Positions 339 to 36,861 of a stretch of DNA of 47,016 bases are shown in pieces; position 1 is the first letter of the stretch, and every line of letters starts with the position of its first letter. The translations under genes and the position numbers were made by a program. The notes beneath the pieces are model-generated. The model did not search any database. It was not told the origin of the DNA and saw only the letters and a program-made list of their open reading frames with translations. This DNA comes from Terrimicrobiaceae bacterium (GTDB lineage Bacteria > Verrucomicrobiota > Verrucomicrobiia > Chthoniobacterales > JAATET01): assembly GCA_028713285.1 (NCBI GenBank), contig JAQTOP010000018.1, positions 1 through 47,016 on the forward strand. The letters run 5' to 3'.

Positions 339-926
339 TTACTCCGCTTGCGGTACTCCCGTGATGACTTCGATTTTGAGCGCGCCGCCGTCCGGTCCCG
401 TGAGTTCGCGCTTCTGTTTGAATTCCGGGCAGCGGGCTTGCGCCAGCAGCTCGAGAATCCGATCGGATCGCTTCAACACCGTGAGGATTTCCCCGGTCGC
501 CTGGTCCTTCATGAATTCGCCCTGCCAGATCAGCGGCTCGGGAACGCCATCGATCGCCCGCCGACGGACGAAGTCGCGCACCCGATCGAGGAACCGGCTC
601 TCCGCGTCATGGAATCGCTCCGGATAGGTCGGGTCGAGATCCATCCATTCGTAATGGGTGCAGCGGTTGAGTTCGGCGTGCTCGGCGGCTTTCGAGACGT
701 TGCCGACTTGAGCATAGATCTCGAGAAAGAGTTTCTGTCGATCGAGCTTGTCGTTTCGTTCGACCGGCGGCTCGATATAACTATTTTGTGATATCGGCGG
801 CTTTGCTTTCTGCGCCCCTGCCGGAGCTGCCTGCGATTTGACCGTTGCGGATTTCGGCTTGGTCGGCTCGAACTGCCCGGCCGCGTTGCGTTGCCGTTTG
901 AAGCGGGACGGTTTTTTTTTCTTCAA
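339..926 (-). CDS. terS: terminase small subunit
   Basis: 195 residues. It sits directly upstream of the large terminase on the same strand, the standard position for the subunit that recognises phage DNA. The N-terminal third is basic and low in complexity, with many K, A, P and Q. A helix-turn-helix-like stretch follows at about residues 66-100 (KLFLEIYAQVGNVSKAAEHA), as in terminase small subunits. The start is TTG at 926 with a weak AGGA upstream, next to a run of nine T in the plus strand, so the first residues are uncertain. A diverged copy of the genome-wide repeat (809-826) lies in frame and encodes PAGAQ. Confidence 0.85.
   Translation of the reverse strand: MKKKKPSRFKRQRNAAGQFEPTKPKSATVKSQAAPAGAQKAKPPISQNSYIEPPVERNDKLDRQKLFLEIYAQVGNVSKAAEHAELNRCTHYEWMDLDPTYPERFHDAESRFLDRVRDFVRRRAIDGVPEPLIWQGEFMKDQATGEILTVLKRSDRILELLAQARCPEFKQKRELTGPDGGALKIEVITGVPQAE
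809..826 (+). repeat. dispersed repeat copy, diverged, inside terS
   Basis: Matches 16 of 18 bases of TCTGCGCCCCAGGCGGAG. It lies inside the small terminase gene and is read there as PAGAQ, the same frame as the PPGAQ copies elsewhere. The two mismatches make it the weakest member. Confidence 0.55.
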
Positions 927-4357: not shown

Positions 4358-4428
4358 ATGCCGGTGTGGGCAACTCCTCCTTGAGGTTTTAAAAACATTT
4401 TCCGATAGAGACTTTGGGAGATCAAGTG

Positions 4429-4446
4429 TCTGCGCCCCAGGCGGAG
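4429..4446 (+). repeat. dispersed repeat copy, A orientation
   Basis: Exact TCTGCGCCCCAGGCGGAG, followed on the plus strand by AACATGCGGACTGACCGTGG, the conserved flank. It lies between two minus-strand genes, 33 bp past the stop of the winged-helix gene (4480). Confidence 0.85.
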
Positions 4447-4479
4447 AACATGCGGACTGACCGTGGCTGGATGGACGCC

Positions 4480-4794
4480 TCACCGAAATCGGACCCGGGC
4501 TTCCATCGCGCTGCCAATCCCCTTGCATTTCAATTGGACGAGTCCTGATGCTTCCAGGTGATAGAGGGTCCGTCTGACGAGCTTCGCGTTGACATGAAGC
4601 AACGAAACCAAATCCGCAACCATGATCCAGTCGCCGTGAGCCTTCAGGAATTCCCAGCAATCGATATAGCGACGCACACGCAACCCGGCGGCGGCCGCGC
4701 GCTGACGGTCGGTGCGATCCATGGTGCTCAATAACCACGCTATTTGCTTCTTGCTGACATTCCGCTTCTTTACGGCGCGCGTCATCGAAATCAT
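4480..4794 (-). CDS. winged-helix DNA-binding protein
   Basis: 104 residues. Residues about 45-95 (DCWEFLKAHGDWIMVADLVSLL, then LVRRTLYHLEASGLVQ) have the pattern of a winged helix with a recognition helix and wing. The N-terminus is basic. It overlaps the upstream gene by ATGA (start 4794, stop at 4791). It may regulate the replication operon or take part in replication; the target is unknown. Confidence 0.65.
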   Translation of the reverse strand: MISMTRAVKKRNVSKKQIAWLLSTMDRTDRQRAAAAGLRVRRYIDCWEFLKAHGDWIMVADLVSLLHVNAKLVRRTLYHLEASGLVQLKCKGIGSAMEARVRFR

Positions 4795-5282
4795 ACCTCT
4801 CCTTCGGATTCCGGCTTCGGCCCGCGCTGCAGCAGTTCCGCCTGTTTTCGCAGTTTGCGAAGTTGGGCCTCGAGGTCGACCGGTGCCTTCGGTATTTTTT
4901 TCTCCGCGGCGGTTTGTGCAACCACGGTTTTAAATTTACCGAACAGCGCCGCCTGTTCTTCCGCTGCAAGCGGCTCCCAATCGGGCGGCTTGTCGCCGCG
5001 CTCGAGGAGGGCACGGCTGCGATGGGCTTGCGCGAGGGCCCTGGCTGTTGACTCCAGGCTTGCGGCAATCTCGCGCACGTCGCCCACGTTCGGCATGAAC
5101 TTCTGCCGGCGCGCGCGCTTGAGCGCGGTTTCTAGCAGCGCGATCGGTATGTCGGCTAACTCCTCGGCCCAGGCATTGGCCGTACCTTCCGGCATTTCGT
5201 CGCGCCAGTTGAACGTCGCAAACTTGAAAAATTCCGCGACCAAGAAACGCACCCGCACCATTGCCGTCCCGTTGCCGTTCAT
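4791..5282 (-). CDS. putative helicase loader or replication accessory protein
   Basis: 163 residues. It follows the O-like initiator gene with a 4-bp overlap, the place of lambda P-type loaders. The N-terminal half (RVRFLVAEFFKFATFNWRDE, then LLETALKRARRQKFMPNVGDV) resembles the small all-helical domain of phage replisome accessory proteins. The C-terminal half is a charged coiled coil with no P-loop, so it would not be a DnaC-type ATPase. Function is inferred from position and general pattern. Confidence 0.55.
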   Translation of the reverse strand: MNGNGTAMVRVRFLVAEFFKFATFNWRDEMPEGTANAWAEELADIPIALLETALKRARRQKFMPNVGDVREIAASLESTARALAQAHRSRALLERGDKPPDWEPLAAEEQAALFGKFKTVVAQTAAEKKIPKAPVDLEAQLRKLRKQAELLQRGPKPESEGEV

Positions 5283-7775: not shown

Positions 7776-7817
7776 TAGCCCCGGGCAGAATCGAACTGCC
7801 GACCTCCGGTTTAGGAA
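7776..7817 (-). other. attP: attP core: 3' half of tRNA-Arg(CCU)
   Basis: Read on the minus strand, these 42 bases fit a tRNA from the anticodon loop to the discriminator base: loop TTCCTAA (anticodon CCT), 3' anticodon stem ACCGG, variable loop AGGTC, T stem GGCAG/CTGCC with loop TTCGATT, 3' acceptor strand CGGGGCT, and A. The 5' side of the anticodon stem does not pair, so this is not a complete tRNA gene. Such a fragment next to an integrase is the phage half of an attachment site; integration would rebuild the host tRNA gene. Identity with a host gene may extend past both ends. Confidence 0.88.
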
Positions 7818-7869
7818 GCCTGTAGGCGAGACTTGCCCCGTGTCCGGACCCGTGCCCAATTCTTTAGGA

Positions 7870-8504: not shown

Positions 8505-8514
8505 GAGCTTTAGA

Positions 8515-8532
8515 TCTGCGCCCCAGGCGGAG
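8515..8532 (+). repeat. dispersed repeat copy, A orientation
   Basis: Exact TCTGCGCCCCAGGCGGAG, preceded by AGCTTTAGA as in the copy at 36827. It lies between two minus-strand genes, 10 bp before the start at 8504. Confidence 0.85.
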
Positions 8533-8571
8533 TTGCCGCTCGGTTTACCGTTGCTGATGGTTCCTTAATTG

Positions 8572-8585
8572 GGGAACGCATTCCC
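8572..8585. other. small hairpin at the repressor 3' end
   Basis: GGGAA-CGCA-TTCCC, a 5-bp stem touching the stop codon of the XRE gene at 8585. There is no T run, so termination is doubtful. Confidence 0.35.
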
Positions 8586-8866
8586 TACCCTCTCCGCTTT
8601 CCGTTGCTGCTTTTGGCTTTGGGTTCTGCGCCGTTCCCATTCATGCCTTCCGCTTCAGAAACCCAAAGATCTGTGATTCTGACTTTTAGTGCGCGAGCGA
8701 TTTTTTTTGCCATACCTGGCGTTTGGCGTTTGTAGTTTTCAAAGTTGCTGATGACCGTTGTGCCGACACCAGCGCGATAGGCCAATTCGGTCTGATTCCA
8801 ACCGAGTTTTTCCCGAAGATCCCGCACACGCTTTGCACTATACGGCATGTCATAGAGTTGTGGCAT
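8585..8866 (-). CDS. XRE-family repressor-like regulator
   Basis: 93 residues. An HTH_3 domain spans about residues 12-68: RVRDLREKLGWNQTELAYRAGVGTTVISNFENYKRQTP, then ARALKVRITDLW. The tail is a short Gly/Asn/Lys-rich extension, with no LexA-type peptidase domain. It is divergent from another XRE gene, the usual arrangement of phage immunity genes. The start is ATG at 8866; an internal ATG at 8848 is possible. Confidence 0.82.
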   Translation of the reverse strand: MPQLYDMPYSAKRVRDLREKLGWNQTELAYRAGVGTTVISNFENYKRQTPGMAKKIARALKVRITDLWVSEAEGMNGNGAEPKAKSSNGKRRG

Positions 8867-8900
8867 AAACCTGGAAATGTGTCAACATCATTTTCTTCTA
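8867..8900. promoter_or_regulatory. divergent regulator intergenic region with TTGACA
   Basis: The minus strand carries ATGTTGACAC at about 8887-8878. The same ten bases occur at the early rightward promoter (10420-10429). This may be a -35 element, an operator for one of the XRE proteins, or both. A matching -10 for the leftward gene is not clear. Confidence 0.4.
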
Positions 8901-9326
8901 GTGTTTAGGAGGGCGCATGAAACAATCGCTGACGTGCTCGGGCAAAAAGAAATTGGCGCGAAATTAAAGGATCTACGTGAGCGGCAGTTCGGCCGCAGCG
9001 TGCGCCATTTCCAGCAGAAAAGCGGCGTGAGTCGAGGTTCGGTGCCCGGCGTTGAGAAGGGTTTGAATTATCCCCGGATTGACGTTCTTGAGAAGTGGTT
9101 GAAGGCCTGCAAAGTCACCTTCGCTGAATTTTTTGGCGAAGCCCCGCCGCCTGGGGGCTACAAACCGAAACATAAAGACCACCACGATCAGTTGGAATTT
9201 GTGCTGACCCACATGCCGCACAAAGACTCCGCCACGCTCAGAACCCTGAGTCTCGAATACGAAGACCTGAAAGAAAAGATCTCCGCTGACTTTCAAGCAA
9301 ATTCCCGAGGTTCCCCCAGCCAATAA
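8877..9326 (+). CDS. second XRE-type HTH protein (start uncertain)
   Basis: The frame encodes up to 149 residues. It contains an HTH_3-like domain (IGAKLKDLRERQFGRSVRHF, SGVSRGSVPGVEKGLNYPRI, LEKWLKACKVTFAEFF), then a charged helical tail. The start is unclear: the strong AGGAGG at 8907-8912 serves an ATG at 8917 that is one frame off and stops after 16 codons at an A-rich stretch (GGCAAAAAGAAA). Possible explanations are a GTG start at 8934, translation from further upstream, frameshifting, or a sequence error. It diverges from the XRE gene at 8866 and is probably a Cro-like partner. Confidence 0.72.
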   Translation: MCQHHFLLVFRRAHETIADVLGQKEIGAKLKDLRERQFGRSVRHFQQKSGVSRGSVPGVEKGLNYPRIDVLEKWLKACKVTFAEFFGEAPPPGGYKPKHKDHHDQLEFVLTHMPHKDSATLRTLSLEYEDLKEKISADFQANSRGSPSQ

Positions 9327-9440
9327 CCAGGGAGGGAAGGAGGGCGGCCAGGACGGCCACGACGAAAAACGTAGTCGATTTGATGATGTGGAAGGCTGAA
9401 CGACGAAGAACCGTTGAGGAGTGGAGTTGAGGAGGAATTC

Positions 9441-9596
9441 GTGAAGGAATACAAGACCATCAATGAATCAGATCTGCCAGGGGCCTTCAAGAAAGCCGAA
9501 TATGATTTCAGTGACGGCTGGGAACTGTGGGACGTTGTATTTGGTCCTAAAGAGGGATCTTGGTTTCTGATTCTGGAACGGGAGGAGCGGGAGTAG
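9441..9596 (+). CDS. small acidic protein
   Basis: 51 residues from a GTG at 9441 with GGAGG six bases before it. The product is acidic and aromatic (DGWELWDVVFGPKEGSW, ending EREERE). It is not recognised. The last 50 bp overlap the minus-strand gene 9547-9762 tail to tail. Confidence 0.6.
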   Translation: MKEYKTINESDLPGAFKKAEYDFSDGWELWDVVFGPKEGSWFLILEREERE

Positions 9597-9762
9597 GCGA
9601 TATCGCATACAGCGGTGGATGCTCCAGGAGAGTAGCCACCAATGCCAAGACCTTCTGTTGCTGCCAGTGCTCCATGTTCCGGCTGCCAATGTAGTGCGCC
9701 GCCATCTTGGCAATGTTGACGATTTCCTCGTCGCTCAAACGGCGATCCTCTTCCTTCTTCAT
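9547..9762 (-). CDS. hypothetical helical protein
   Basis: 71 residues, starting MKKEEDRRLSDEEIVNIAKM. A helical, charged N-terminal two thirds is followed by a proline-rich tail (PTPAPPVPESE). Natural composition and an ATG with nearby purines support it. Function unknown. It overlaps the opposite gene 9441-9596 at its 3' end. Confidence 0.6.
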   Translation of the reverse strand: MKKEEDRRLSDEEIVNIAKMAAHYIGSRNMEHWQQQKVLALVATLLEHPPLYAISPTPAPPVPESETKIPL

Positions 9763-9797
9763 GGACGCAAGCCTAACACCGGGCTAGAGTCCTGTCA

Positions 9798-9816
9798 CTC
9801 CGCCTGGGGGCGCAGA
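9798..9816 (-). repeat. dispersed repeat copy, B orientation on plus, one extra G
   Basis: CTCCGCCTGGGGGCGCAGA on the plus strand, the core with one added G. It abuts the stop codon of the minus-strand secreted-protein gene (9817). Confidence 0.75.
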
Positions 9817-10329
9817 TTATCGGCCAGCGCTAACGAGATTAGCCTTGAGATAAGAATTTAGAAACTCTTCAAGAAGTGTATCTAGGATGCCTAGTATAAA
9901 GTTCACGTCCCGGCCGTGGGTTCCGAAGTTCCGGTCACTCCAGACAGTCACGAACTGTTGCCAGACTGTTCCATCGGGCAAGTCCCATTTCGCACTGCGG
10001 TGAAATTCGATATCGGCCTTGAATGCTGCACCTACAATTTCGACCTTAACGAAAAGACACTGCCCAAATCCATCCTTGGGAATCATTCCCGCGCTGCGCA
10101 GTTTCAATTCCGTCCTGGTCTGAACTCGCCCCGTCTGCAACCCTAAGTCATTCTTTGTAACCTCGGCAACTACGAGGCAGAGGTTTTTGGCGTTGTCGAC
10201 TGCAAGTTGCTTTGCCTCGGGCTCCAGTATGTCTTTGAAAACGGCGGCCCAGTCAGTCTTCCCCTGCGCGCGACCATCGCTAAAGCACACAAGAATCGTC
10301 ACGACGGCCGCAATTAAACCACGCTTCAT
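9817..10329 (-). CDS. predicted secreted protein, accessory (moron-like)
   Basis: 170 residues from the ATG at 10329. Residues 1-21 are a signal peptide: a basic start (MKR), a hydrophobic core (GLIAAVVTILVCF) and a likely AQG cleavage site. The mature part is a mixed alpha/beta domain with no recognised family. Lying between the immunity genes and the early operon, with its own orientation, it could be expressed from the prophage and alter the host surface or exclude other phages (inference). Its codon and base use looks less GC-rich than its neighbours. Confidence 0.7.
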   Translation of the reverse strand: MKRGLIAAVVTILVCFSDGRAQGKTDWAAVFKDILEPEAKQLAVDNAKNLCLVVAEVTKNDLGLQTGRVQTRTELKLRSAGMIPKDGFGQCLFVKVEIVGAAFKADIEFHRSAKWDLPDGTVWQQFVTVWSDRNFGTHGRDVNFILGILDTLLEEFLNSYLKANLVSAGR

Positions 10330-12707: not shown

Positions 12708-12980
12708 ATGTTCAAGTCGGGAGACATTCTCGTTGTTCAACCGCAAGATCCCGACGACTGCGAAGCGCTCGCGCATGCCGGCGAGCGCTGCCAGCTCGTG
12801 CGATATGTCGATGTGTACAGCGGTTCGCGCTACGCCATCGTTCGATTTACGACGCAAGGGCGCGGGTTTTATTTCCGCTCGGGGGATCTGGTTTTCGCTC
12901 CGCAGGCTTTGGAACCATCAGCAACAGTCCCGGAGAATGAGACACCGCCTGGGGCGCAGACACAAGAGACACAATCATGA
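12708..12980 (+). CDS. hypothetical protein ending in repeat-encoded PPGAQ
   Basis: 90 residues. The N-terminal domain (MFKSGDILVVQPQDPDDCEA...RYAIVRFTTQGRGFYFRSGDLVFAP) looks like a small beta barrel. The last 15 residues include TPPGAQT, encoded by the dispersed repeat at 12943-12960, so the tail was probably gained from the repeat. The gene overlaps the next start as ATGA. Confidence 0.7.
   Translation: MFKSGDILVVQPQDPDDCEALAHAGERCQLVRYVDVYSGSRYAIVRFTTQGRGFYFRSGDLVFAPQALEPSATVPENETPPGAQTQETQS
12943..12960 (-). repeat. dispersed repeat copy, B orientation on plus, at a gene 3' end
   Basis: CACCGCCTGGGGCGCAGA on the plus strand (one mismatch). Read in frame it encodes PPGAQ, eight residues before the gene's stop. 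Confidence 0.8.
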
Positions 12981-14707: not shown

Positions 14708-14836
14708 GCAAAGAGGCTTTGCCGGATGTGCCTGTTTTATTGATCAAACATCAGCATTTCGTGTACCCCGGTGAGGGCCAAATGGCGGAGACGAAGGCTT
14801 TCCCAGAAGCACCTCCGCCACACCGGATTTGGATGT

Positions 14837-14852
14837 TGCGCCCCAGGCGGAG
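14837..14852 (+). repeat. dispersed repeat copy, A orientation, left end of element
   Basis: TGCGCCCCAGGCGGAG followed by ACGATACGGACTAACCGCGG. With the inverted copy at 15188 it bounds the gene 14902-15228; similarity of the two ends extends for about 40 bp. Confidence 0.8.
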
Positions 14853-14901
14853 ACGATACGGACTAACCGCGGCTGTCTGGGTGACTCAGCGAGGAGGGGC
14901 A

Positions 14902-15228
14902 ATGGAGGACCGCTGGAAGTTTGCGAATCGAATCAGCGATGAAATCGCGGGCGTGCTCAATCGCGAAAAGGACGCCACGGATTTCAGTCCCGTTCAAATG
15001 CTCGCAGGGCAACTCCTCGCGTTGGTGAGCTATCTGCGAACGACCGATGAGATTGACCCCGCGACGATTCCAGCACCCGTGCTGATACTGCGCGCCGCCG
15101 CCGAGACATGCCTCGATGCCATCGTTAAAAGTAAAGTCGGATTAGCGAACCCTGCGAACAACACAGCCACGCAAAGTCCGAATGCCGCTCCGCCTGGGGC
15201 GCGAAATCCAAATCCGAAAGGTAACTAA
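14902..15228 (+). CDS. hypothetical protein bounded by inverted repeats
   Basis: 108 residues from the ATG at 14902, which has GAGGAGG just upstream. The same frame is open back to a GTG at 14704, so a 174-residue form is possible, but that extension runs through a repeat copy. Helical, with LLALVSYLRTTDEIDPATIP in the centre. The last 17 residues (APPGARNPNPKGN) are encoded partly by the repeat at 15188. No known family. Confidence 0.65.
   Translation: MEDRWKFANRISDEIAGVLNREKDATDFSPVQMLAGQLLALVSYLRTTDEIDPATIPAPVLILRAAAETCLDAIVKSKVGLANPANNTATQSPNAAPPGARNPNPKGN
15188..15203 (-). repeat. dispersed repeat copy, B orientation on plus, right end of element
   Basis: CTCCGCCTGGGGCGCG on the plus strand, preceded by GCCACGCAAAGTCCG. 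It is read in frame as PPGAR near the end of the preceding gene. Confidence 0.8.
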
Positions 15229-16405: not shown

Positions 16406-16731
16406 GCGCGCACCACGAAAAGATGCAAGAGAGGACCCTCGAACTCTTCCGCTCGCATGAGAAAGAGATGAGAGAAGATGTTGCGTTCACCATGAGGCTT
16501 GCGGACTGGGTGCTCATCCACGGCCACCTGCAGTTGGCATTGCGTCATCCGGAAGCAACGGGCAGGTCCCGGCTGTCGGCCGAGCGGCTGGTTGCAGCCA
16601 TTGAAGCCATTTGCCTCGATAAGGGCGTCTTTGATCGCGAACTCATCGATTACTTGGCGCGGGATCAGGCTACCGTCGAGCAGCAAGCCAGGAAGGGAAA
16701 GGCGGGAGCGAACGGTGTGGATCGGCGGTGA
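16402..16731 (+). CDS. hypothetical helical protein
   Basis: 109 residues, almost fully helical and charged (KMQERTLELFRSHEKEMRED, WVLIHGHLQLALRHPEATGR). Not recognised. A repeat copy follows its stop at 34 bp. Confidence 0.68.
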   Translation: MSAHHEKMQERTLELFRSHEKEMREDVAFTMRLADWVLIHGHLQLALRHPEATGRSRLSAERLVAAIEAICLDKGVFDRELIDYLARDQATVEQQARKGKAGANGVDRR

Positions 16732-16764
16732 GGCGTCCAGACAGCCACGCAAAGTCCGTATCAT

Positions 16765-16781
16765 CTCCGCCTGGGGCGCAA
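16765..16781 (-). repeat. dispersed repeat copy, B orientation on plus
   Basis: CTCCGCCTGGGGCGCAA on the plus strand, preceded by GCCACGCAAAGTCCGTATCA. It lies between plus-strand genes, ending nine bases before the ATG at 16790. Confidence 0.82.
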
Positions 16782-16789
16782 ACACTGGA

Positions 16790-16987
16790 ATGACTTCGAA
16801 GCGCAATCCTCGCTTACCTGATCCTCAATTCTGTTCTGTATTTATTCAGACGAATCGAGGTGTCGTGATAACCGCAGCAGTCGCCGACTTTATACGTCGA
16901 CCCTTTCACAAAAAGACCAACGGACACTATTGGACAAGCTGGAGAGCGTTAACGAAAGGTGAGTTGAAGTGGTTAGGGTGGGCGTAA
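16790..16987 (+). CDS. small hypothetical protein, uncertain
   Basis: 65 residues, rich in aromatic and basic residues (RRPFHKKTNGHYWTSWRAL). The frame is open further upstream, across the repeat and into the previous gene. There is no strong ribosome site. It may be a real short gene or an open stretch. Confidence 0.42.
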   Translation: MTSKRNPRLPDPQFCSVFIQTNRGVVITAAVADFIRRPFHKKTNGHYWTSWRALTKGELKWLGWA

Positions 16988-17848: not shown

Positions 17849-19465
17849 CTTCCTGCGCGTGCCGTTTCCGAGGTCCGTGACGCGCAGCGACTGTTTTCCG
17901 GTGAAGTAGTCCGCAAAGCTGCGGATTTCCGGCGGCTGCGGGTTGAGCAAAGCGCCCGCGTTCGATGAGCCCTTACCCACGACGCTGCCCTGGCCGGGAG
18001 TGCCTTGCGGGTATCCCTCTTTCATCAGCGCCGTCCCGGTCGTGACGTTTAACTGATTCGCCCCGGCCGATGGCACAAAGCCGGAGCCATCACCCATCGC
18101 ATACGGTCCTCCCGCGTGTTCCGGCAGTTGCCGTTCCGGGCCGATGATCTTTACCACCTCTGCGAACTTTCCCTTGGAAATCAGGTCGGCGATCTCCATC
18201 TTCACGGCCGCCGACGTCGTGCGCCAGGCGGTCGATTGCATGAAGCGAACCAGCAGTGGGCCCACGACCGCACCGATTGGCCCGCCCAGGACGCCGCCCT
18301 TGGCCGCTCCGATGCCCGCGCCGGTCGCTCCGGAAATCAAATCCTTCATTGAGAGATTCCGGCCAGTCTCGCGCAACGACTTGGCGTTCATCACATCATC
18401 GACGTTCGACCAGAACGTGAATTCGGCGTTGGCTGCTTTGACATCCGGATAAGCTTCCCCAATGTGACGCCGGAATAACGTGGCGACCTGTTTCTGCGCC
18501 GCCACTTGCGATGTGGCCTTGAGGTCTTTGCCGCCAAATCCTGAGGATTCATCGACGACCTGGTCGAGCAACTGCCGGACTTTCCGCATCGATCCCGCTG
18601 AAATCTGATCGCCGAATTGCTCGACCATTCCTTTGAGTTCGCTCAGTTTCTCGACGGCGGCCGGCAGGATCTCGACGTTCTCCGAGGTGAATTCATTCTT
18701 AAGCCGCTCGATCGCCTCGACCAACGGTTGAGCCGGCAGTTTTTCGCCTGCTGGAATTTTCTCCCAGGCGGCGTCAACCGCCTTGCCCGCGGCTGTTTTC
18801 GAAGCGGCGATCTTCGCGCGAAACTCGGTCTCGGTCCATGCGCTAACGCCGCGCTTCGTCAGTTCCGGAATGATTTTATTGGTGATGAACTTCGTTTTTT
18901 CCTTCGTGGGATTCAAGATCCGCTTGTAGTTGCCTTGTGCTGATTTTTCCAAAGCGGGTGCGAGTCGGGACGCTTGATTGGCCAAGTGCGGTGCGCCTTT
19001 AACGATGGCCTCCGGCACCGCTAAGGTGGTAACGGCTTCCGCGGCGGTGCCTGCTGGATCGTTCGGAAAGCGTTCCGCCATATCCGCGAGCCATTGCCCC
19101 ATGATGGGGACCTGGCGCAGCATCGTACCGACCGGGTGATCACTCAAGTGCTGCAATCCCTGCTCGAATTGTGCGTTGGACGCCGGCACGTCGGCGGGTT
19201 GCATCTGAGAATTCGGCTCGTCGGGATTCTCGGCTACCGCCCGGACCAGATTGATCGGGTTGAGATTTTGAAAGCCGCGCTTTACGCCGGCGATGATCCC
19301 GGTCTCTGGCGGAAGGTTCGCCTCAAATGCAGCCTTGGACGCGGCCTGGCGGCTCGCCAGGAGCTCTGGGGATATCTCGCTAGACGGCGCGGCATACTTC
19401 GTCCAGGGTCCCGCTTCGACAGCCGGCGCAGCGTTCTGGTACTTCTCCCACGGTGCTTGAGGCAT
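17834..19465 (-). CDS. putative ejection (internal virion) protein, 543 aa
   Basis: 543 residues, last gene of the late operon. The N-terminus has a WEKY/WTKYA pair of short motifs, the middle is helical, and about residues 375-410 contain a Gly/Ala-rich hydrophobic stretch (ISGATGAGIGAAKGGVLGGP) that could insert in membrane. Three large proteins of this kind in a row at the end of a podoviral late operon match the place of P22 gp7/gp20/gp16 DNA-ejection proteins. No lysozyme motif was seen. Starts in a TAATG overlap with the preceding gene. Confidence 0.62.
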   Translation of the reverse strand: MPQAPWEKYQNAAPAVEAGPWTKYAAPSSEISPELLASRQAASKAAFEANLPPETGIIAGVKRGFQNLNPINLVRAVAENPDEPNSQMQPADVPASNAQFEQGLQHLSDHPVGTMLRQVPIMGQWLADMAERFPNDPAGTAAEAVTTLAVPEAIVKGAPHLANQASRLAPALEKSAQGNYKRILNPTKEKTKFITNKIIPELTKRGVSAWTETEFRAKIAASKTAAGKAVDAAWEKIPAGEKLPAQPLVEAIERLKNEFTSENVEILPAAVEKLSELKGMVEQFGDQISAGSMRKVRQLLDQVVDESSGFGGKDLKATSQVAAQKQVATLFRRHIGEAYPDVKAANAEFTFWSNVDDVMNAKSLRETGRNLSMKDLISGATGAGIGAAKGGVLGGPIGAVVGPLLVRFMQSTAWRTTSAAVKMEIADLISKGKFAEVVKIIGPERQLPEHAGGPYAMGDGSGFVPSAGANQLNVTTGTALMKEGYPQGTPGQGSVVGKGSSNAGALLNPQPPEIRSFADYFTGKQSLRVTDLGNGTRRKSPKK

Positions 19466-20892
19466 TAGTTCTTCTTCTTCCAGCTTTTCGGATCAGCCGG
19501 ATTGCCGCCCATAAACACATGCCCGTCCTGAACGTCGCCGACTTTCGGAGGGGCTGGAGCGCGCGGTTTGGGCGCTGCGCCTGGCGCTGCCGGGCCGGGT
19601 GTGTTCGGTGCTTCATCCTCCCCATACGCTTGCGTATAGGCCCGGCCCGACTCGGTCTTGAAGGTTTTCAACTGTGTGTCGCGGGCTTTCTTTTTCTGCG
19701 CGAGTACGGCCGCATCGTCGCCCGGCTGCGGAAAGTAAATCGAATTGAAGCGGGCATATTCACCGTCGCTGATCGCGGCTCCGGACTCCCGGCGCAACGA
19801 GGCGTTGATAAAATCGTTCTTCGCCTGGTTGTAGCGTTGACCGACGGAAGACTGCATGATGTTCGGCGCGTTGTTCAGCCGGGTCTGGCCGATGATGCCC
19901 ATCTTTGCGATATCGGGCTCTAAGAGGTTAATGGCGTCCAGGGCGCCGTCGACGCGCTCGTAGAAGCCGAGCATTTTCAACTGCGCCGCCGTGGGCGGTT
20001 TCGCATCGCCCGAGCCTTGCAGCCTGAACCATTCCTCGACCGAGCCGTCCGGATGCTGCCGCTGCCAGAGTTTGAACGGGCTGGATGAATCGCCACCACC
20101 CCCGCCGGTCGGCGCTCGGCTGATCTTGAGCCATTGGTCGACGGATTTGCCGGGGTTGTCGGCGTGCCACACTTCAAACGGAGTGTTGGGCGCGGAGGTG
20201 GGCGAGGTCTTTTGGCTGAGATCCAGCCACTCGCCAACGGGCTTGTCGGGATTCTGCTGCTTCCACACTTCAAACGGCGTGTTGGGCTTCTGACCGGCTT
20301 CTGTTGCAAGGTTATGGCGGTTCGCTTCCCCGAGTTCCCGCTGCTTCGGCGATTGCTTCAGGATGCTGTCGCGGATCGCCGCGCGGTCTTCCGGCGTCTG
20401 CGCCGATTGACGCACCTGGTCGTAAGGGAAAGAGGGGTCTCGCGCTTTGATCAGGTTCAGCGCGGATTCGAAGGCTTGCGGGTCGTTGGGGTCGATGCCA
20501 GCGAATAGCGAGCCGGACCAGTCCTGAATTTCCTTGTCGGCGTCGGTGTTCTTTTTTCGGGCGTCTGCTGTGTTCTCGTTCGCCGTTGCTACCGATGCCT
20601 GGTGTTTGTCCCAGTTTTCTTGATAGCTCTGCTTGGTCTTGAGCGAGATCGGCGCTTTCATGATCGCGGCGAAGGTTTCTTCCGGCGAGAGCCCCTGCTG
20701 GAATAGCCCCTTGATGACTTCCTGATCGGCCAGGGCTTGCTTGTCGGCGTCTTGCTTCGCTTGCCCTTCCTGATCGGTGCGTTGAAGGGCGCGCAGGCCG
20801 AGCATTTGCTCCTCGAGCTGAACCGGTTGTAAGGGTCGAGGTGAGCGTTGAGCGAAAGCGCGTAGAGGGATGTTGGAATCGATTTGTGCCAT
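19465..20892 (-). CDS. putative ejection protein with three PFxxW repeats
   Basis: 475 residues. The N-terminal 190 residues are helical and Gln-rich. Three tandem units follow at about residues 206-300: TPFEVWKQQNPDKPVGEWL, TPFEVWHADNPGKSVDQWL and SPFKLWQRQHPDGSVEEWF, joined by Gly/Ser/Pro linkers. A globular domain comes next and the tail is rich in Pro and Ala. Located between two other putative ejection proteins. The W-repeats may bind a partner in the virion; their function is not known to me. Confidence 0.62.
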   Translation of the reverse strand: MAQIDSNIPLRAFAQRSPRPLQPVQLEEQMLGLRALQRTDQEGQAKQDADKQALADQEVIKGLFQQGLSPEETFAAIMKAPISLKTKQSYQENWDKHQASVATANENTADARKKNTDADKEIQDWSGSLFAGIDPNDPQAFESALNLIKARDPSFPYDQVRQSAQTPEDRAAIRDSILKQSPKQRELGEANRHNLATEAGQKPNTPFEVWKQQNPDKPVGEWLDLSQKTSPTSAPNTPFEVWHADNPGKSVDQWLKISRAPTGGGGGDSSSPFKLWQRQHPDGSVEEWFRLQGSGDAKPPTAAQLKMLGFYERVDGALDAINLLEPDIAKMGIIGQTRLNNAPNIMQSSVGQRYNQAKNDFINASLRRESGAAISDGEYARFNSIYFPQPGDDAAVLAQKKKARDTQLKTFKTESGRAYTQAYGEDEAPNTPGPAAPGAAPKPRAPAPPKVGDVQDGHVFMGGNPADPKSWKKKN

Positions 20893-20902
20893 AAGATTTT
20901 AA

Positions 20903-20919
20903 TCTGCGCCCCAGCGGAG
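20903..20919 (+). repeat. dispersed repeat copy, A orientation, short form
   Basis: TCTGCGCCCCAGCGGAG, lacking one G. Left end of a 106-bp non-coding element whose right end is at 20994-21008. It lies 10 bp before the start of the 475-residue protein gene. Confidence 0.82.
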
Positions 20920-20993
20920 ACAACGGCGCTTGTGCGTTTCTGTATTCGGGCTTTGCGGTAAGGGAAAGATCAGCAGCGGTTAGTCCGTATGTT

Positions 20994-21008
20994 CTCCGCT
21001 GGGGCGCA
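20994..21008 (-). repeat. dispersed repeat copy, B orientation on plus, short form
   Basis: CTCCGCTGGGGCGCA on the plus strand, preceded by CAGCGGTTAGTCCGTATGTT. Five bases past the copy is the stop codon of the minus-strand gene ending at 21014. Confidence 0.82.
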
Positions 21009-21013
21009 AAATC

Positions 21014-22369
21014 CTAACCATTCCCGCTGAATTCGTCCGGCTGCGGACCGTTGGGGAATTGCGGGTTGTATCCGGATTGATTCTTCTTCTGCTGTTGCTG
21101 GGCGAGGATCTGCTGCAAGGTGACGCCTCCGGTGTTCAACAGGTCCGCCCAATTCGCCGCGTTGCCGGCTTGCGCGTTGGCTTGAGCGTCGGCCGATCCG
21201 GTGATCAAGCTGGTCGTTCCGGCGCCGTAGGCATTGCCGGCCAGGATCGATTGCGAGTTGGCGCGCTCTCCGAATCCCGCCACGGTCGCCAGGCGGTTAA
21301 ACCGCGTGTTTTGATCGTTGGTGAACCGTCCGTAAGCGTTCTGATATTCGTTACTTGCGAACCCTTGTCCGTAGCGTTCCAGGGCTTTTAAGGTGCCTCC
21401 GGAGTGCAGCATGTTGCCGGCTTGGGCTTGCACGCCTTTCAGTCCTTCCGTCATCCGGAAGTCGTAGCCGGGATCTTTGATAAAGTCTTCATTACTAAAG
21501 GTTTTGTTGAGTTCACCGAATCCTATGGCGTTGGGATCGGAGGTGGGATCTCCTGGATTCTGCGCCCCGGGCGGAGTGCCATTTCCGCTTTGCGCTGCTG
21601 GATTTCCGCTCTGCGCGGGGAGCGAGGAAAGCTGCTCCTGCCAGGACGCGACCATCGGATCGAAGTATTTGGCTAGCGTCGCCACACCGCCCGGACCCGC
21701 CCGTCCGAATTCCGCCGCTTTGGCTCCGAAATCCTTCTGCAATCCCTGCACGGTGGAGATCGCCGTTTGTAAATCCTCGTGCGTGAGCGTGCCGTCGGCT
21801 TTCGCCGCGTCGACGGCTTTGGTGATCCGGTCGACTTCGGCGGCCACTTGATTCTGAATCGGCACGAGCGAGTCGGCTTCGTGGCGCCCCTTGCCGAATT
21901 GCGCCGAGAGTGCCCCCACGCCTCCGCCGATGGCAGCACCGACTCCCGCGCCGAGCGGTCCGGCAAATGCGCCGATCCCTGCGCCCGTGGCGGCTCCGGA
22001 GAGCGCGCGGACGCCGGTCGAGTTCAAAGCCGACGGTGCGTTGACGCCGTTGCCGACCGTGCCGCTCATGGGAGAGCTGTAACTGGACGATCCGCCGGTC
22101 GATCCACCGCTGGTTGCGCCGGAAGGTCCGGAGGCAATGCCGAGACCGCGCATGAGCTGCGAGAGACCCGCCTGCCCGGCGTACTGGTAGGGTTGCAAGC
22201 TCTGCTGCTGCTTCGCCCAGATTTGAGCGAGGACCGCCATCGCCTCTTTGGCGCCTGCCGATTGCGTGTCGGCGGCGCCTTGAGCGCCTTTGTTCTGGAT
22301 AACGGTCGTGCCGAGTTGGGTAGCGGCCGGGATTGCGGCGCTGAGGATTTCAGACCAGTTGATTGCCAT
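21014..22369 (-). CDS. putative ejection protein, Gly/Ala-rich, 451 aa
   Basis: 451 residues from the ATG at 22369 (MAINWSEILSAAIPAATQLG); an upstream start at 22420 would include part of the repeat and is less likely. Gly/Ala-rich hydrophobic stretch (GAATGAGIGAFAGPLGAGVG) at about residues 120-150, a helical centre, and a Gln/Asn-rich C-terminus. Similar composition is usual in podoviral DNA-transfer proteins. A repeat copy lies in frame at 21559-21576, encoding TPPGAQN in a linker. The best alternative is another internal virion protein. Confidence 0.62.
   Translation of the reverse strand: MAINWSEILSAAIPAATQLGTTVIQNKGAQGAADTQSAGAKEAMAVLAQIWAKQQQSLQPYQYAGQAGLSQLMRGLGIASGPSGATSGGSTGGSSSYSSPMSGTVGNGVNAPSALNSTGVRALSGAATGAGIGAFAGPLGAGVGAAIGGGVGALSAQFGKGRHEADSLVPIQNQVAAEVDRITKAVDAAKADGTLTHEDLQTAISTVQGLQKDFGAKAAEFGRAGPGGVATLAKYFDPMVASWQEQLSSLPAQSGNPAAQSGNGTPPGAQNPGDPTSDPNAIGFGELNKTFSNEDFIKDPGYDFRMTEGLKGVQAQAGNMLHSGGTLKALERYGQGFASNEYQNAYGRFTNDQNTRFNRLATVAGFGERANSQSILAGNAYGAGTTSLITGSADAQANAQAGNAANWADLLNTGGVTLQQILAQQQQKKNQSGYNPQFPNGPQPDEFSGNG
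21559..21576 (+). repeat. dispersed repeat copy inside a coding sequence
   Basis: TCTGCGCCCCGGGCGGAG on plus, one mismatch to the core. On the minus strand it is read as PPGAQ within a Gly/Pro-rich linker of the 451-residue protein. Confidence 0.78.
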
Positions 22370-22397
22370 AGAGATTTTGGTTGGAGAGTGTTTAGTT

Positions 22398-22415
22398 TCT
22401 GCGCCCCAGGCGGAG
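22398..22415 (+). repeat. dispersed repeat copy, A orientation
   Basis: Exact TCTGCGCCCCAGGCGGAG. Left end of a 123-bp element; lies 28 bp before the minus-strand start at 22369. Confidence 0.85.
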
Positions 22416-22502
22416 ACCACGGCGCTTGAGCGTTTCTGTATTCGGGCTTACCGATCGGTAGGGGCTTTGAAACCAGACAGCCCACTGTCCCGGAGAATGT
22501 CA

Positions 22503-22520
22503 CTCCGCCTGGGGCGCAGA
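22503..22520 (-). repeat. dispersed repeat copy, B orientation on plus
   Basis: Exact CTCCGCCTGGGGCGCAGA on the plus strand. It lies nine bases beyond the stop of the beta-helix gene (22530). Confidence 0.85.
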
Positions 22521-22529
22521 CCTTACTGC

Positions 22530-23705
22530 TTAGAAAATAAATACTTGAGACCGCGCCGTTGAGGCTGGAGGGACGACAACGCCGTAGCGGTATGCCCCGA
22601 TATCCCACGGAGTACTCCTCACCTGTTGCAAATAGTCTCCGGGGAAGATGCCGGACAGATCCACGCCTGCATTTCGGGCGGCGCTGGACGACTGCAGCGT
22701 GAAGTCCGCTCCCGGTCCATTCGTGAACGCCGGATCGCCCCACAGGTTCGGATCGATGACGGAGTTGGATCCGGCGTTGACGAAATTGCTCGAGTTCAGA
22801 TACCCGATGTTGTTTTTGACAAAAATGCCGTCACCGTTTTGAACCCAGATCCCGATGCCGAGATTGTTGTAAACGGAATTGTTGTAGAACGCGCAATCGA
22901 TCGCGCCGTCGTAGGTCCGCATGCCCCCGGCGCCGCCTCCCGCCCAGGATGCGATCCCGTTTCCATAAACGAGGTTGTTGTACGCCACGTTGTTCGATCC
23001 GCTCGAGAACAGCAGACCGAAGGAACCGTTGTCGTGCAGCTTGCAGCGCCGTACCGTCAGGCGATTGGTGCCCAGGCCCGACTGCGAGAACACATGAATG
23101 CCGTGGCTGTCGGTGTCGTAGACTTCGCAGTCTTCGATGATCGAATCGTCGCAGTGTTCGACGTAAATCGAGTGGCCGTGCGGCGTGAACCCTCCAGGCC
23201 ACGGATAGCCGGTGTGGTAGACCGTCAGCCCGCGCAGCGTCAGGTGATGATTGTCCCCGACGTCCGCCGCGATAAATATCCCGCCCGTGTGGTGGACGAT
23301 CAAATTCGAGAGCAGCAGGTGATGCACGCCCAAGCCGAGCCGCTGCCCGACGCCCAACGCGCCCTCTGCGGTGCCCGCGCCTCCGTCCTGGCCGCCGACG
23401 ATCGTGAGGTTGTCGATCGTCACGTACGCGCAGCTGTGGACCGTCAACGGCTGATCCGCCGTCGCGCCGTCGATCGTGACCGTTTCTCCCGGGTAGCCCG
23501 CAATGACCGTGTGGTTCGCATCGTCGGCGCCGTTCGGCACCGAGCCCGAGATCGCGACGACCGCCTCGTGGTAGGTGCCTCCGCGGATCAGCAGCGTATC
23601 GGCCGAGGACAACAGCGTCTGCCCGGACGCGATATCCCGGCGAGGCGAGCTGATGGTGCCGGCGTTTCCGTTATTGCCGGTGGTCGCGACGTAGTACGTC
23701 GCCAT
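22530..23705 (-). CDS. right-handed beta-helix protein, tailspike or depolymerase candidate
   Basis: 391 residues. It opens MATYYVATTGNNGNAGTISS, then RGGTYHEAVV, a start common to pectate-lyase-like and parallel beta-helix proteins. Many N-, V- and G-rich coils follow (HTVIAGYPGETVTIDG, NNVAYNNLVYGNG, FYNNSVYNNLGIGIW) as in PbH1 repeats. Directly follows the long fibre gene, so it probably forms a receptor-binding or polysaccharide-cutting part. Catalytic residues cannot be assigned by eye. Confidence 0.78.
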   Translation of the reverse strand: MATYYVATTGNNGNAGTISSPRRDIASGQTLLSSADTLLIRGGTYHEAVVAISGSVPNGADDANHTVIAGYPGETVTIDGATADQPLTVHSCAYVTIDNLTIVGGQDGGAGTAEGALGVGQRLGLGVHHLLLSNLIVHHTGGIFIAADVGDNHHLTLRGLTVYHTGYPWPGGFTPHGHSIYVEHCDDSIIEDCEVYDTDSHGIHVFSQSGLGTNRLTVRRCKLHDNGSFGLLFSSGSNNVAYNNLVYGNGIASWAGGGAGGMRTYDGAIDCAFYNNSVYNNLGIGIWVQNGDGIFVKNNIGYLNSSNFVNAGSNSVIDPNLWGDPAFTNGPGADFTLQSSSAARNAGVDLSGIFPGDYLQQVRSTPWDIGAYRYGVVVPPASTARSQVFIF

Positions 23706-26297
23706 CTAGCCGAGCACCGTCAGCACCACCGTGACCCGCTGCACGGTCGATACGGACGAGACGTTGAATCTCAGCGTGTCCCCGGCCGCGATCGCCGTCG
23801 TCCAGCCGACCAGCGTCAAGTCTTGCGATTTGACCGCGGAGGAAATCGTCGGCTTCGCGGAGGCGCAGATCGTATCGGCGACGGTGGGCGGATAGTTCGC
23901 ATAGGTGTCTTTCCAGATGTCGATCGCAATCGAGCCGCTTTGATCCGCGAGCAGCCGCACCGCCGTGATCGTGCAGGCAAACGGGATCGAGAGATCGCCT
24001 TTGATTCCGGTCGAGATGACCGCGCCGCCGCCGTCGATCACAAACGTCAACGCCCGCGTTGCGAGTGACGCCGCGAGTGTGGTCGCGGTCATCGTCAGCC
24101 CCGACCCGATCGTGATTTCCTGCAGATCTCCGGCGCCGCCCGCCGATCCGCGGCCGAGCAGCTTCGAGGCCGCCGAGACCTGCGCGATATTCGCCAGAGG
24201 CAGATCGCCCGTCACTTCCGTCGCGAGATTCACGGCGCCAGCCGTGCCCATGACGCCCGAGGTGATCCGCACGATGCCGGTACCCGCGGCGCGTTTGATG
24301 AGCGCGCCCGTGGTTGCCGAAAACAGCGCAATCTCGCCATCGATGGAGGCGACCGGTCCGGTGACGTTGCCGCCGCCCGCCGGCGTCGCCCAGGTACCAT
24401 CGCCTCGGAGAAATGTTGTGGTGAGCCCGTCGAGCTTCGGCAGCAGACCGTGGAGCGAGGCGGTCGCGTTCAGTGTCGTCACGTCGGTCGGTGCGGCGAG
24501 TTGATCCAGCTTGATCGCATCCGCACCACCGCTTCGGTGCGAGGTCGCATGATTGGCTGGCGCTTGAGCCGCCGCCGCCGCGAGCAAAGCGGTGATCGTG
24601 GTGCCGGAGTTTTTGACGAGTTTGCCGGTCGTCGAATTGAAGATGACGATCGCGTCCGCCGTTGCACTCGCGGGCCCGACCACGTCGCCGGACGTGGCGC
24701 CGGGAGGTGCAACCCACGTCCCATCGGCGCGGAGGTAGGTGGTCGTGCCGCCCGCAAGTTTCGGTAAGAGACCATGCTGCGACGTTGTCGCGTTCAGCGT
24801 CGTGATATCGGTGGGCGCGGCAAATTCGTCCAGCTTGATCGGATCGGCGCCGCCGCTCTTGTGCCGCGTCGCGTGCGTTGCCGGTGCAGCCGCCGCAGCG
24901 GTCGCGAGAACCTGTGCGATGGTTTGGCCGGAGTCCTGGATCAGCTTGCCCGTCGTCGAGTTGAAGGTGACGATATCGTTATTGACGGAAGACGCCGCAC
25001 CCAGGACATCTCCGGATCCGGCGCCCGTCGGTCCGGTGGCTCCGGTCGCTCCCGTGGCTCCCGTGGCGCCAGTGGCCCCTGTCGCGCCCGCGGCGCCCGT
25101 GGCCCCTGCCGGCCCTGTCGGCCCGACTCCGCCGGGCGCCCATGTTCCATCGGCGCGGAGGAAGTCGGTCGTGCCGCCGCCCAGCTTCGGGAGAAGGCCG
25201 TGCGCCAACGTCGTGGCGTTGAGCGTGGTGACGTCCGTTGTCGCGGCGAGCTCATCGAGTTTGATCGGGTCCGAGCCGCCGGATTTGTGACTCGTCGCGT
25301 GCGCGGCCAGCACGAGCGTGGTCGTGGACATCGTCAGCCCGGCGCCGATCGTGATTTCCTGCAGATCTCCGGCGCCGCCCGCCGATCCGCGGCCGAGCAG
25401 CTTCGAGGCCGCCGAGACCTGCGCGATATTCGCCAGAGGCAGATCGCCCGTCACTTCAGAAGCGAGAGCGACCGGGCCCGGCGTTCCATAGACCCCCGAG
25501 GTGACGCGGACAATCCCGGTACCGGTGGCGCGCTTGATGACCTTGCCGGTGGTCGAGGAAAAGAGCGCCACCTCGGAATCCACGCTCGAGGCCTGTCCCG
25601 CGACATCGCCGGCGCCCGGCGGCGTGGTCCAGGCGCCCGTGCCATCCAAGAAGTGCGCGGCGTTGTTGTCGAGTTTCTTCAAGAGGCCGTGTGCGGAAGT
25701 CGTGGCGTTGAGGGTCGTGACGTCGGTCGTGGCCGCCAACTCATCGAGCTTGATCGCGTCGCCGCCGCCCGATTTGTGCGAGGTGGCATGCGTTGCCGGA
25801 GGCGCCGCGGCCGCGGTCGCTAAAACCTGGGCGATCGTGTTTCCCGAATCCTTAATGAGCTTGCCGGTCGTGGAGTCAAAAACGACGATGTCGTTATTCA
25901 CGGCAGAAGCCGCACCGAGCACATCGCCGGATCCGGCCCCCGTGGGCCCGGTGGCGCCTGTGGCTCCAGTGGCTCCTGTGGCTCCTGTGGCGCCTGCCGG
26001 TCCGGTGGCGCCCGTGCCCCCTGCCGCTCCTGTTGCTCCCGCAGCCCCCGTGGCTCCAGCAGGTCCAACGGCGCCCGCCGCCCCCGCGTTACCCGTGGCG
26101 CCTTGCGGTCCTTGCGCGCCCGTGGCGCCAGCCGTTCCGCCGCCACCGCCGAGCGCATAGGAGCTCCAAGCGGAGCCGTTCGATTGCTCGACGATCGAGC
26201 CCTCATCGGTGACCGAATAGAGCGCGCCTGGCGAGACGGCGGAGGCCAGCGGTTGAGCACTGCGTGTGCCGATGAGTAAAACTTCAGCAATTTTCAT
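23706..26297 (-). CDS. collagen-like tail fibre with repeated modules
   Basis: 863 residues. A short head ([17 protein letters not shown]...[20 protein letters not shown]) is followed by a Gly-X-Y collagen-like stretch at about 50-118 and a second one near 390-430. Four copies of an approximately 60-residue module carry [27 protein letters not shown] and HGLLPKLDG, plus FLRGDGTW. Two copies of a [20 protein letters not shown] unit are encoded by a perfect 113-bp direct repeat. The C-terminal domain is beta-rich. It is a trimeric fibre by analogy, probably for host adsorption. Confidence 0.85.
24106..24218. repeat. 113-bp perfect direct repeat in fibre gene, copy 1
   Basis: Identical to 25345-25457 (offset 1239). 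Flanking sequence differs, as do the third codon positions of the other modules, so this part was recently duplicated or homogenised. Confidence 0.9.
25345..25457. repeat. 113-bp perfect direct repeat in fibre gene, copy 2
   Basis: Identical to 24106-24218. Recombination between the two copies would delete 1239 bp, an exact 413 codons, and keep the fibre in frame. Confidence 0.9.
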
Positions 26298-26310
26298 TTT
26301 TGTTTTTCTG

Positions 26311-26328
26311 TCTGCGCCCCAGGCGGGG
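26311..26328 (+). repeat. dispersed repeat copy, A orientation, left end of cassette
   Basis: TCTGCGCCCCAGGCGGGG, one mismatch. It lies 13 bp before the fibre gene start (26297) and, with the copy at 26705, bounds a one-gene cassette. Confidence 0.83.
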
Positions 26329-26355
26329 TTACAGTGCGGCTAACCGGAGGCGGTG

Positions 26356-26727
26356 ATGTTCGACGACAAGTACCGACGCGACGGAACGAAGTACCCGCCG
26401 GGCATGGAAGGGGTGCTCGAATGGGGGCGCGACTTCGAGGACCGTGAAAAGAAGATCGTGCGCCAGGACGAGTTGCCCAACGGCTATTGGGTCTCGACGG
26501 TGTGGATTGGCATCAATTACCGTTACGGCGATGGCCCGCCGCTCATTTTCGAGACGATGGTGTTCGACTCCAGGAACGGGGACGCGGCCGACTACCAGGA
26601 ACGATACTCAACCGAAGACGACGCGATCATCGGACACCTGAAGGCCGTCGACCACTTCGCCACGTACGCAAAGTCCGAATCCAGCAACGGTCAGTCCGCA
26701 TGTTCTCCGCCTGGGGCGCAGATCTAA
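26356..26727 (+). CDS. hypothetical protein carried by repeat-bounded cassette
   Basis: 123 residues from the ATG at 26356, with GGAGG five bases upstream. It is globular and acidic (MFDDKYRRDGTKYPPGMEGV, VSTVWIGINYRYGDGPPLIF). I have a sense of small phage proteins of this kind but cannot name a family. The last residues (NGQSACSPPGAQI) are encoded by the right-hand repeat. It is on the strand opposite to its neighbours, consistent with independent acquisition. Confidence 0.75.
   Translation: MFDDKYRRDGTKYPPGMEGVLEWGRDFEDREKKIVRQDELPNGYWVSTVWIGINYRYGDGPPLIFETMVFDSRNGDAADYQERYSTEDDAIIGHLKAVDHFATYAKSESSNGQSACSPPGAQI
26705..26722 (-). repeat. dispersed repeat copy, B orientation on plus, right end of cassette
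   Basis: Exact CTCCGCCTGGGGCGCAGA on the plus strand, preceded by AACGGTCAGTCCGCATGTT. It encodes PPGAQ at the end of the cassette gene and abuts the stop of the convergent gene 26724. Confidence 0.87.
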
Positions 26728-26951
26728 GTCAGCGGTCGAAAGGCCATCAACACCTCACCATTCGCAAAAATAATCTCCGGATCGTCGACGTCCCCGTTGA
26801 CGAGCGGCTCCCAGACGCCAGCACTCCGCGTGTCGACCGTCTCTAGAAGCGATCCCACATCCGCGAAGTATCGGGTCCAGACGACCGACTCGTTCACCTT
26901 CGTGCCGTTGGCATCGATCGGAATTGGCGCTTTGACAGGTGCATCTGGCAT
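26724..26951 (-). CDS. small structural protein candidate
   Basis: 75 residues (MPDAPVKAPIPIDANGTKVN), with an extended N-terminus and one likely beta domain. Starts in an ATG overlap at 26951 with the preceding gene. Small proteins of this kind are common next to podoviral stabilisation genes; function unknown. Confidence 0.65.
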   Translation of the reverse strand: MPDAPVKAPIPIDANGTKVNESVVWTRYFADVGSLLETVDTRSAGVWEPLVNGDVDDPEIIFANGEVLMAFRPLT

Positions 26952-36565: not shown

Positions 36566-36861
36566 TATTTACGCACCCTGCGGATTTCGACGAGCCGCCC
36601 GACCGGCTCCACCGTGCAGACAAAGGAATTCTTGGGACACAGGTAGGCGAGCGCTTCCTGTTCGCCTCGCGCGTTGCGGATCGCGACCAGATACACGTCG
36701 GGCGAGACCTGGCGCGCGGACCAGCGCTCCGCTTCGATCACGGGAGGCGCGGCAGTCCGTCGCAGCGGACCCACGCAGGACGCGAGCGCGCACAGTCCGA
36801 ATACAGCCACGCACAAGAGCCATTGCCTCCGCTGGGGCGCAGATCTAAAGCTTCTAACCAT
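36565..36861 (-). CDS. predicted lipoprotein
   Basis: 98 residues from the ATG at 36861, overlapping the previous gene by a few bases. A basic n-region, a hydrophobic core (WLLCVAVFGLCALA) and the lipobox LASC make a type II signal peptide. The basic n-region (SAPQRR) is itself encoded by a dispersed repeat copy (36827-36843). A TTG start just after the repeat, with the repeat's GGAGG as ribosome site, is another option. Possible roles: outer-membrane spanin-like protein or exclusion lipoprotein. No partner spanin was recognised. Confidence 0.68.
   Translation of the reverse strand: MVRSFRSAPQRRQWLLCVAVFGLCALASCVGPLRRTAAPPVIEAERWSARQVSPDVYLVAIRNARGEQEALAYLCPKNSFVCTVEPVGRLVEIRRVRK
36827..36843 (-). 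repeat. dispersed repeat copy, B orientation on plus, in lipoprotein leader
   Basis: CTCCGCTGGGGCGCAGA on the plus strand, the short form. Preceding sequence CCGAATACAGCCACGCACAA matches the flank of copies at 20903 and 22398. Read on the gene strand it gives SAPQRR. Confidence 0.82.

Follow-up and report, generated by a model that had tools for sequence, protein, structure and literature searches.

Two intergenic elements in the virion operon of a temperate P22-like phage are probably convergent doublets of a dispersed, phage-borne repeat unit

The elements and their phage

Two non-coding elements that separate consecutive genes in the virion operon of a temperate phage are probably convergent doublets of one repeat unit, and we regard this unit as a likely phage-borne counterpart of REPINs and Rickettsia palindromic elements (RPEs) that has spread by copying inside the phage. 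The window, which is the whole stretch of DNA that was analysed (47,016 nucleotides), carries 16 copies of the unit on both strands (Table 1), and the membership of the element ends in such a genome-wide family was absent from an earlier note on this DNA. An identical 127-bp direct repeat is present at the two contig ends (1-127 / 46890-47016), so we read the contig as the closed circular genome (~46.9 kb) of a temperate P22-like podovirus, and it looks complete. Profile matches recovered a P22-like set of proteins (portal, scaffold, major head protein, head closure, DNA ejection, and large and small terminase) as well as a tyrosine integrase and two HTH regulators. The contig (C31) is part of a 3.53-Mb MAG. 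Just downstream of the integrase gene, 7776-7840(-) looks like the 3' part of a tRNA and is likely a candidate attP; its 21-nt tRNA-like end (7776-7796) is matched nowhere else in the MAG at up to one mismatch, and the MAG may therefore not represent the true host.

The elements were described in the earlier note as having inverted ends, and the arms are indeed perfectly complementary in both: 16 nt in element 1 (20905-20920 / 20993-21008, 72 nt between them) and 18 nt in element 2 (22398-22415 / 22503-22520, 87 nt between them). Only the start of element 1 had to be amended, from 20903 to 20905, as bases 20903-20904 are unpaired. The two were also said to be alike on the left and different on the right, which agrees with a 45-nt stretch of 91% identity in their left halves (20909-20953 / 22405-22449) followed by right halves that differ. 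The inner motif GTTTCTGTATTCGGGCTT occurs exactly in two places and has three matches at up to three mismatches (0.04 expected), while 12 matches to the end motif lie in the window at up to three mismatches (0.50 expected), a count reached in none of 100 shuffles. By our own simple gene calls, which came from a codon-score script rather than an established gene finder, the elements are the only gaps of at least 60 nt between 17834 and 29622, as had been proposed for this part of the operon, and on the leftward transcript each separates a stop codon from the start codon that follows. The neighboring genes were held to be consecutive ejection-protein genes, and this stands for only one of the three: 21014-22369 has a DNA-ejection profile (phrog_598, E 1.5e-21), whereas 22530-23705 is weakly tail-spike-like (profile E 7.1e-5) and 19465-20892 matches a family of unknown function. 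The start of 19465-20892 could be at 20805 instead.

Both elements fold better than shuffled sequences on both strands (z -5.4/-6.7 and -4.8/-4.7), which bears out the RNA-folding check that had been suggested. The long stems of both lack a following U-run, so neither element is an intrinsic terminator; a terminator scan returned just one small inner stem per element, on the + strand. Rfam gave no match up to E 5 in 20850-22600 and none at the gathering threshold over the window, which speaks against known RNA classes as the identity of the elements, and a tRNA/tmRNA search found none. Three promoter-like sites were found around the elements where 1.9 are expected, which is near chance; one match overlaps element 1, and the scan covered sigma-70-like sites. 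Terminal inverted repeats of the kind that define MITEs are present in both elements, as is the inverted pair of conserved, short, GC-rich, hairpin-forming ends that characterizes REPINs and REPs. By eye, no target-site duplication was seen at either element or at the 14837/15203 pair.

Composition of the repeat family

The unit is ~65-75 nt long and consists of an 18-nt core, TCTGCGCCCCAGGCGGAG, followed by a looser tail around CGGACTnnnCGtgGCTG. The profile search of the window recovered the 12 training copies and four untrained ones (21561+, 26313+, 811+, and 9814-; E values in Table 1), and in leave-one-out searches 12/12 training copies were found again, each at 3.8e-5 or better. A 17th, degenerate copy may exist at 39985+; the profile did not recover it, and it is left uncounted. 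A tail-only profile returned no convincing copy lacking a core. Pairwise identity averages 0.93 in the core, against 0.49 and 0.35 in two parts of the tail and 0.38 upstream, a contrast that is partly due to ascertainment because the core seeded the search.

Table 1. Positions of the two elements and of the repeat units in the window
Feature	Position	Strand	Description
Element 1	20905..21008		Convergent doublet of units 20893-20962(+) and 20956-21019(-); 16-nt perfect inverted ends
Element 2	22398..22520		Convergent doublet of units 22388-22459(+) and 22463-22528(-); 18-nt perfect inverted ends
Degenerate unit	802..858	+	Inside small-terminase ORF 339-926(-), read PAGAQ; nhmmer E 3.3e-4, untrained
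Unit	4420..4484	+	Intergenic
Unit	8505..8573	+	Intergenic, left of regulator region
Short degenerate unit	9793..9819	-	Right of regulator region; E 2.1e-3, untrained
Unit	12903..12968	-	End of weakly supported ORF 12708-12980(+), read PPGAQ
Unit	14826..14889	+	Before small gene 14902-15228(+)
Unit	15146..15214	-	Forms 3' end of 14902-15228(+), read PPGAR
Unit	16723..16789	-	Intergenic
Degenerate unit	21554..21605	+	Inside ejection-protein gene 21014-22369(-), read PPGAQ; E 3.6e-8, untrained
Degenerate unit	26304..26346	+	Before small gene 26356-26727(+); E 7.5e-6, untrained
Unit	26665..26730	-	Forms 3' end of 26356-26727(+), read PPGAQ
Unit	36783..36853	-	Core intergenic; AGCGG core subtype

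The tails look mosaic: 4431+ has 44 nt at 98% in common with 26720-, but shares its far tail with 16780-. The left units of both elements belong to one subtype, which also occurs at 36841-, while the right unit of element 1 resembles 4431+, 14837+, and 26720- and that of element 2 resembles 12958-. Each element is thus made of two head-to-head units of different subtypes, which accounts for the differing right halves. A one-base deletion in the core is common to both arms of element 1 and is otherwise found only at 36841-, so the arms appear to agree more than their tails would predict, possibly through conversion, compensatory change, or a joint origin. At the 14837/15203 pair, inverted similarity extends ~12 nt outside the core (14824-14852 / 15188-15216; 29 nt, 93%), unlike in most copies, and this similarity beyond the cores suggests that a local inverted duplication may have occurred there.

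Placement of the units

Most cores (11/16) are wholly intergenic in a genome that is only 11.4% intergenic (p about 1e-7), and in four of the five sense copies that follow a leftward gene, the stop codon of that gene lies in the outer flank of the unit. Both orientations relative to transcription are represented. Wherever two neighboring cores lie within 450 bp of each other, which is the case for four pairs, they converge (p 0.0006 under random placement, 0.005 under orientation shuffling, and 0.003 when intergenic placement is weighted). Restricted to the two pairs within 130 bp, these three nulls give p values of 0.011, 0.069, and 0.067, and the two tight doublets alone are weak evidence of pairing. 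Close doublets are a minority, with 4/16 units in pairs within 130 bp and 8/16 within 450 bp.

Three convergent pairs enclose genes, namely 14902-15228, 26356-26727, and the two-regulator region 8585-9326. The last of these pairs (8517+/9814-) surrounds the two HTH regulator genes, 8585-8866(-) and 8934-9326(+), and the immunity region between these inverted units (8505-9819) may itself be a cassette. The small gene 26356-26727(+) runs against the direction of its operon; its function is unknown, and it has relatives in 27 IMG/VR loci and seven phage records.

Five cores lie within ORFs (small terminase, ejection protein, 14902-15228, 26356-26727, and 12708-12980), the last of which is included with the reservation that its coding score is just 0.028 per codon. 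Every one of these cores is antisense, and they share a single frame, giving PAGAQ, PPGAQ, PPGAR, PPGAQ, and PPGAQ in that gene order. Since most cores can also be read through in the other antisense frames, the frame is not dictated by stop codons alone. The ORFs 4178-5068(-), 16635-16793(+), and 36569-36823(-) have negative coding scores and were left out of the in-frame count, though the frame is open in the first two. In the proteins with homologs to compare (26356-26727, small terminase, and ejection protein), the unit-encoded stretch is absent from the conserved parts. Among 21 distinct relatives of 26356-26727 (27 viral loci, six of which were dropped as duplicates of the same protein), homology ends at residue 94-108 in 20 and at residue 118 in one, while the unit begins at residue 104 and its peptide ends none of the 21. 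The C-terminal tails of these relatives vary, so the unit may as well have replaced a free tail as been simply inserted. The small-terminase relatives in L083 and L084 match only from residue 67, past the unit, and for the ejection homolog in L143 the match begins at residue 273 or 259, depending on the search, beside the unit at about residues 255-270.

Searches beyond the phage genome

The exact core was not found in the rest of the MAG, in three congeners (four genomes of the genus, its own included), or in the other 56 of 57 related genomes searched, where single matches with one or two mismatches occur. An 18-mer scan of GTDB gave nine single matches with flanks unrelated to the unit. Together these results speak against a host-derived REP family. 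In IMG/VR, a 17-mer search gave three matches with no other similarity to the window, a bipartite pattern gave none, and the ejection protein as a query found no relative; blastn of 20850-22600 against phage records also found no match. Of 83 loci related through the capsid, 80 were kept. Relative loci of at least 6,000 bases, all shorter than the window, have no 13-mer at more than three spread places, versus nine in the window. The relaxed core has two matches in the relative loci (1.0 Mb), with flanks nearly identical to each other and unlike those of the unit, and the unit is absent from every relative locus examined. The ejection gene was present in only one of 26 capsid- or portal-related records. 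There it overlaps both neighbors by one base, which indicates that its junctions can do without gaps. The site does not count as strictly empty, as the neighboring genes have no tblastn match to those in the window. Y1_Tnp had four matches in the MAG, which may not be the true host, and none on the phage contig, and those four loci have no core at up to three mismatches.

Origin of the units

The family consists of homologous, mosaic units at unrelated sites, which argues for copying rather than convergence on a binding site, and from this we infer that the unit is mobile. Of the two guesses offered in the earlier note, that of miniature mobile elements is the better one: the 16 copies at unrelated sites, their position outside conserved protein parts, and the gapless junctions in one relative speak for it, while target-site duplications and a linked transposase were not seen and the recommended search for free copies found none in any genome searched. 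Also against copying, the genomes and loci searched hold neither the unit in a second genome nor a true empty site, and conservation is much stronger in the core than in the tail, beyond what a decaying insertion should show, although the core also seeded the search. By analogy with the phage-private site sets of mycobacteriophages, such a stable core leaves room for a function.

It is possible, if doubtful, that the core is a cis-acting site, either bound by a phage regulator or associated with starts or stops, that is kept at many gene borders in the manner of SAS/ESAS or the Corndog 17-bp repeat, with inverted pairs as double sites. The core is strongly conserved while its flanks and tail drift, it stands at gene borders, the phage has two HTH regulators, and the cited accounts describe comparable phage-private sets (PMC3203893, PMC4351075). 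However, homology extends to the tails, which a binding site would not require, and units occur in both orientations relative to transcription, with five copies always in one frame within ORFs and no promoter signal above chance around the elements. An unlikely account, compatible with copying, is that the units are recombination boundaries, with convergent pairs flanking exchangeable gene cassettes and elements 1 and 2 being emptied ones. The pairs around 14902-15228, the counter-directional 26356-26727, and the regulator genes are consistent with this, and the phage encodes a PF13479 AAA_24 protein, from a family that includes Sak4-like annealing proteins. In cluster O mycobacteriophages, recombination has been invoked to explain the gain of an extra gene bordered by 24-bp repeats (inverted according to the legend, direct according to the text; PMC4351075). 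Yet enclosing pairs number only three, no relative has another gene between units, and the 27 viral loci with relatives of 26356-26727 have no core at up to two mismatches.

The other guess in the earlier note, that processing or attenuation hairpins set the ratios of the internal virion proteins, fared worse, and we consider it improbable that RNA hairpins between stop and start codons control these ratios by processing, stabilizing, or hindering re-initiation. The strong folds on both strands would allow it, the elements are suitably placed, and the leaders past them show no obvious Shine-Dalgarno sequence by eye. Against this, the U-run and any Rfam match are missing, promoters are near chance, the non-transcribed strand folds nearly as strongly, no compensatory changes were found among five predicted pairs of the unit, just 4/16 units form such doublets, and the repeat also occurs far from the operon and inside genes.

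Under the copying explanation, which we favor, each element would be an insertion into a once tight stop/start junction. The unit may have been copied as hairpin-forming DNA by a HUH-type transposase acting in trans, as proposed for REPINs, or alternatively through phage recombination between short repeats. Insertions would survive at gene borders, and inside genes they would persist only if the unit encodes a flexible Ala/Ser/Pro-rich peptide; that units favor borders and one soft reading frame agrees with selection filtering the insertions, and REPs, REPINs, and RPEs have likewise been described as copied units filtered by selection (PMC3116915, PMC3733652, PMC10969869). In the mRNA, a doublet is predicted to be able to fold into a stem of 16-18 bp that separates the stop codon from the start codon, with a possible effect on translation. 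More tentatively, we suggest that this could be a REPIN-like mobile family living in the phage, where it would multiply, pair into hairpins between genes, capture small genes between convergent units, and be tolerated in virion proteins since one of its frames gives a soft Pro/Ala/Ser-rich linker.

Comparison with known repeats

As described in the cited part of PMC3116915, REPINs, REPs, and BIMEs are short, GC-rich imperfect palindromes and inverted doublets with a spacer, conserved ends, and a variable middle, located mostly between genes and several to a genome, features that are shared here. In contrast, the units studied here are in a phage, number 16 rather than hundreds, and mostly lie outside tight doublets, and the span between first bases is 104-123 bp as opposed to 71 bp in GI REPINs (PMC3116915). 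A GTAG or CGTC tag is reported to mark one end of the REP palindrome (PMC3733652); by eye, no shared tag of that kind is present in our 16 aligned copies, and they have no linked RAYT. Given the differences in tag, linked transposase, and doublet ratio, we propose that the unit works like REPs, REPINs, and RPEs and do not class it as a REPIN. In RPEs and other intragenic REPs and RUs, copies occur both between genes and in frame inside unrelated ORFs (PMC10969869, PMC3733652, PMC2759123), as they do here; those in the accounts cited come from bacterial chromosomes, whereas ours are in virion, packaging, and accessory genes of a phage, and the likeness noted here is one of placement.

Among phages, the SAS/ESAS of cluster K mycobacteriophages are also dispersed, phage-private repeats near gene starts that are absent from the host, with inverted pairs (17-bp in ESAS) around a variable spacer, the 13-bp SAS lying beside the start codon (PMC3203893). 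ESAS spacers are mostly 4-13 bp in that account, compared with the 72 and 87 nt between our arms, and SAS/ESAS lie in the non-structural half in one orientation, while our units are found in both orientations among structural genes and within ORFs. The 17-bp repeat of Corndog (cluster O) similarly has many copies per genome in short intergenic gaps and coding regions, and cluster O also offers an extra gene with repeats on either side, but the 17-bp repeat is presented as a true 7-3-7 palindrome without a homologous tail that is kept in sister phages (PMC4351075). The PeSLs of T4-type phages, as cited in PMC3950731, are dispersed intergenic stem-loop cassettes suggested to shuffle genes; they carry early promoters, whereas the sigma-70-like promoter signal around the two elements is not above chance. 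Among the titles found in the literature searched, mostly its open-access part, none concerned a REPIN-like family restricted to a phage. Most small palindromic repeats known so far come from the chromosomes of bacteria, and this private family of about 16 units in a compact phage genome, with copies within the small terminase and a DNA-ejection protein, would offer a small natural system for studying the spread of such repeats, the entry of gene cassettes into virion operons, and the amount of additional sequence that virion proteins tolerate. It also serves as a warning for annotation, as odd C-terminal tails or N-terminal extensions in such genomes may be derived from repeats.

Three leftward genes start just past a unit, at 22369, 20892, and 26297, and by eye have A-rich leaders with no obvious Shine-Dalgarno sequence. 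The gene at 23706-26297(-) encodes an 863-aa protein and contains arrays with a 9-nt period, which probably correspond to collagen-like Gly-X-Y repeats.
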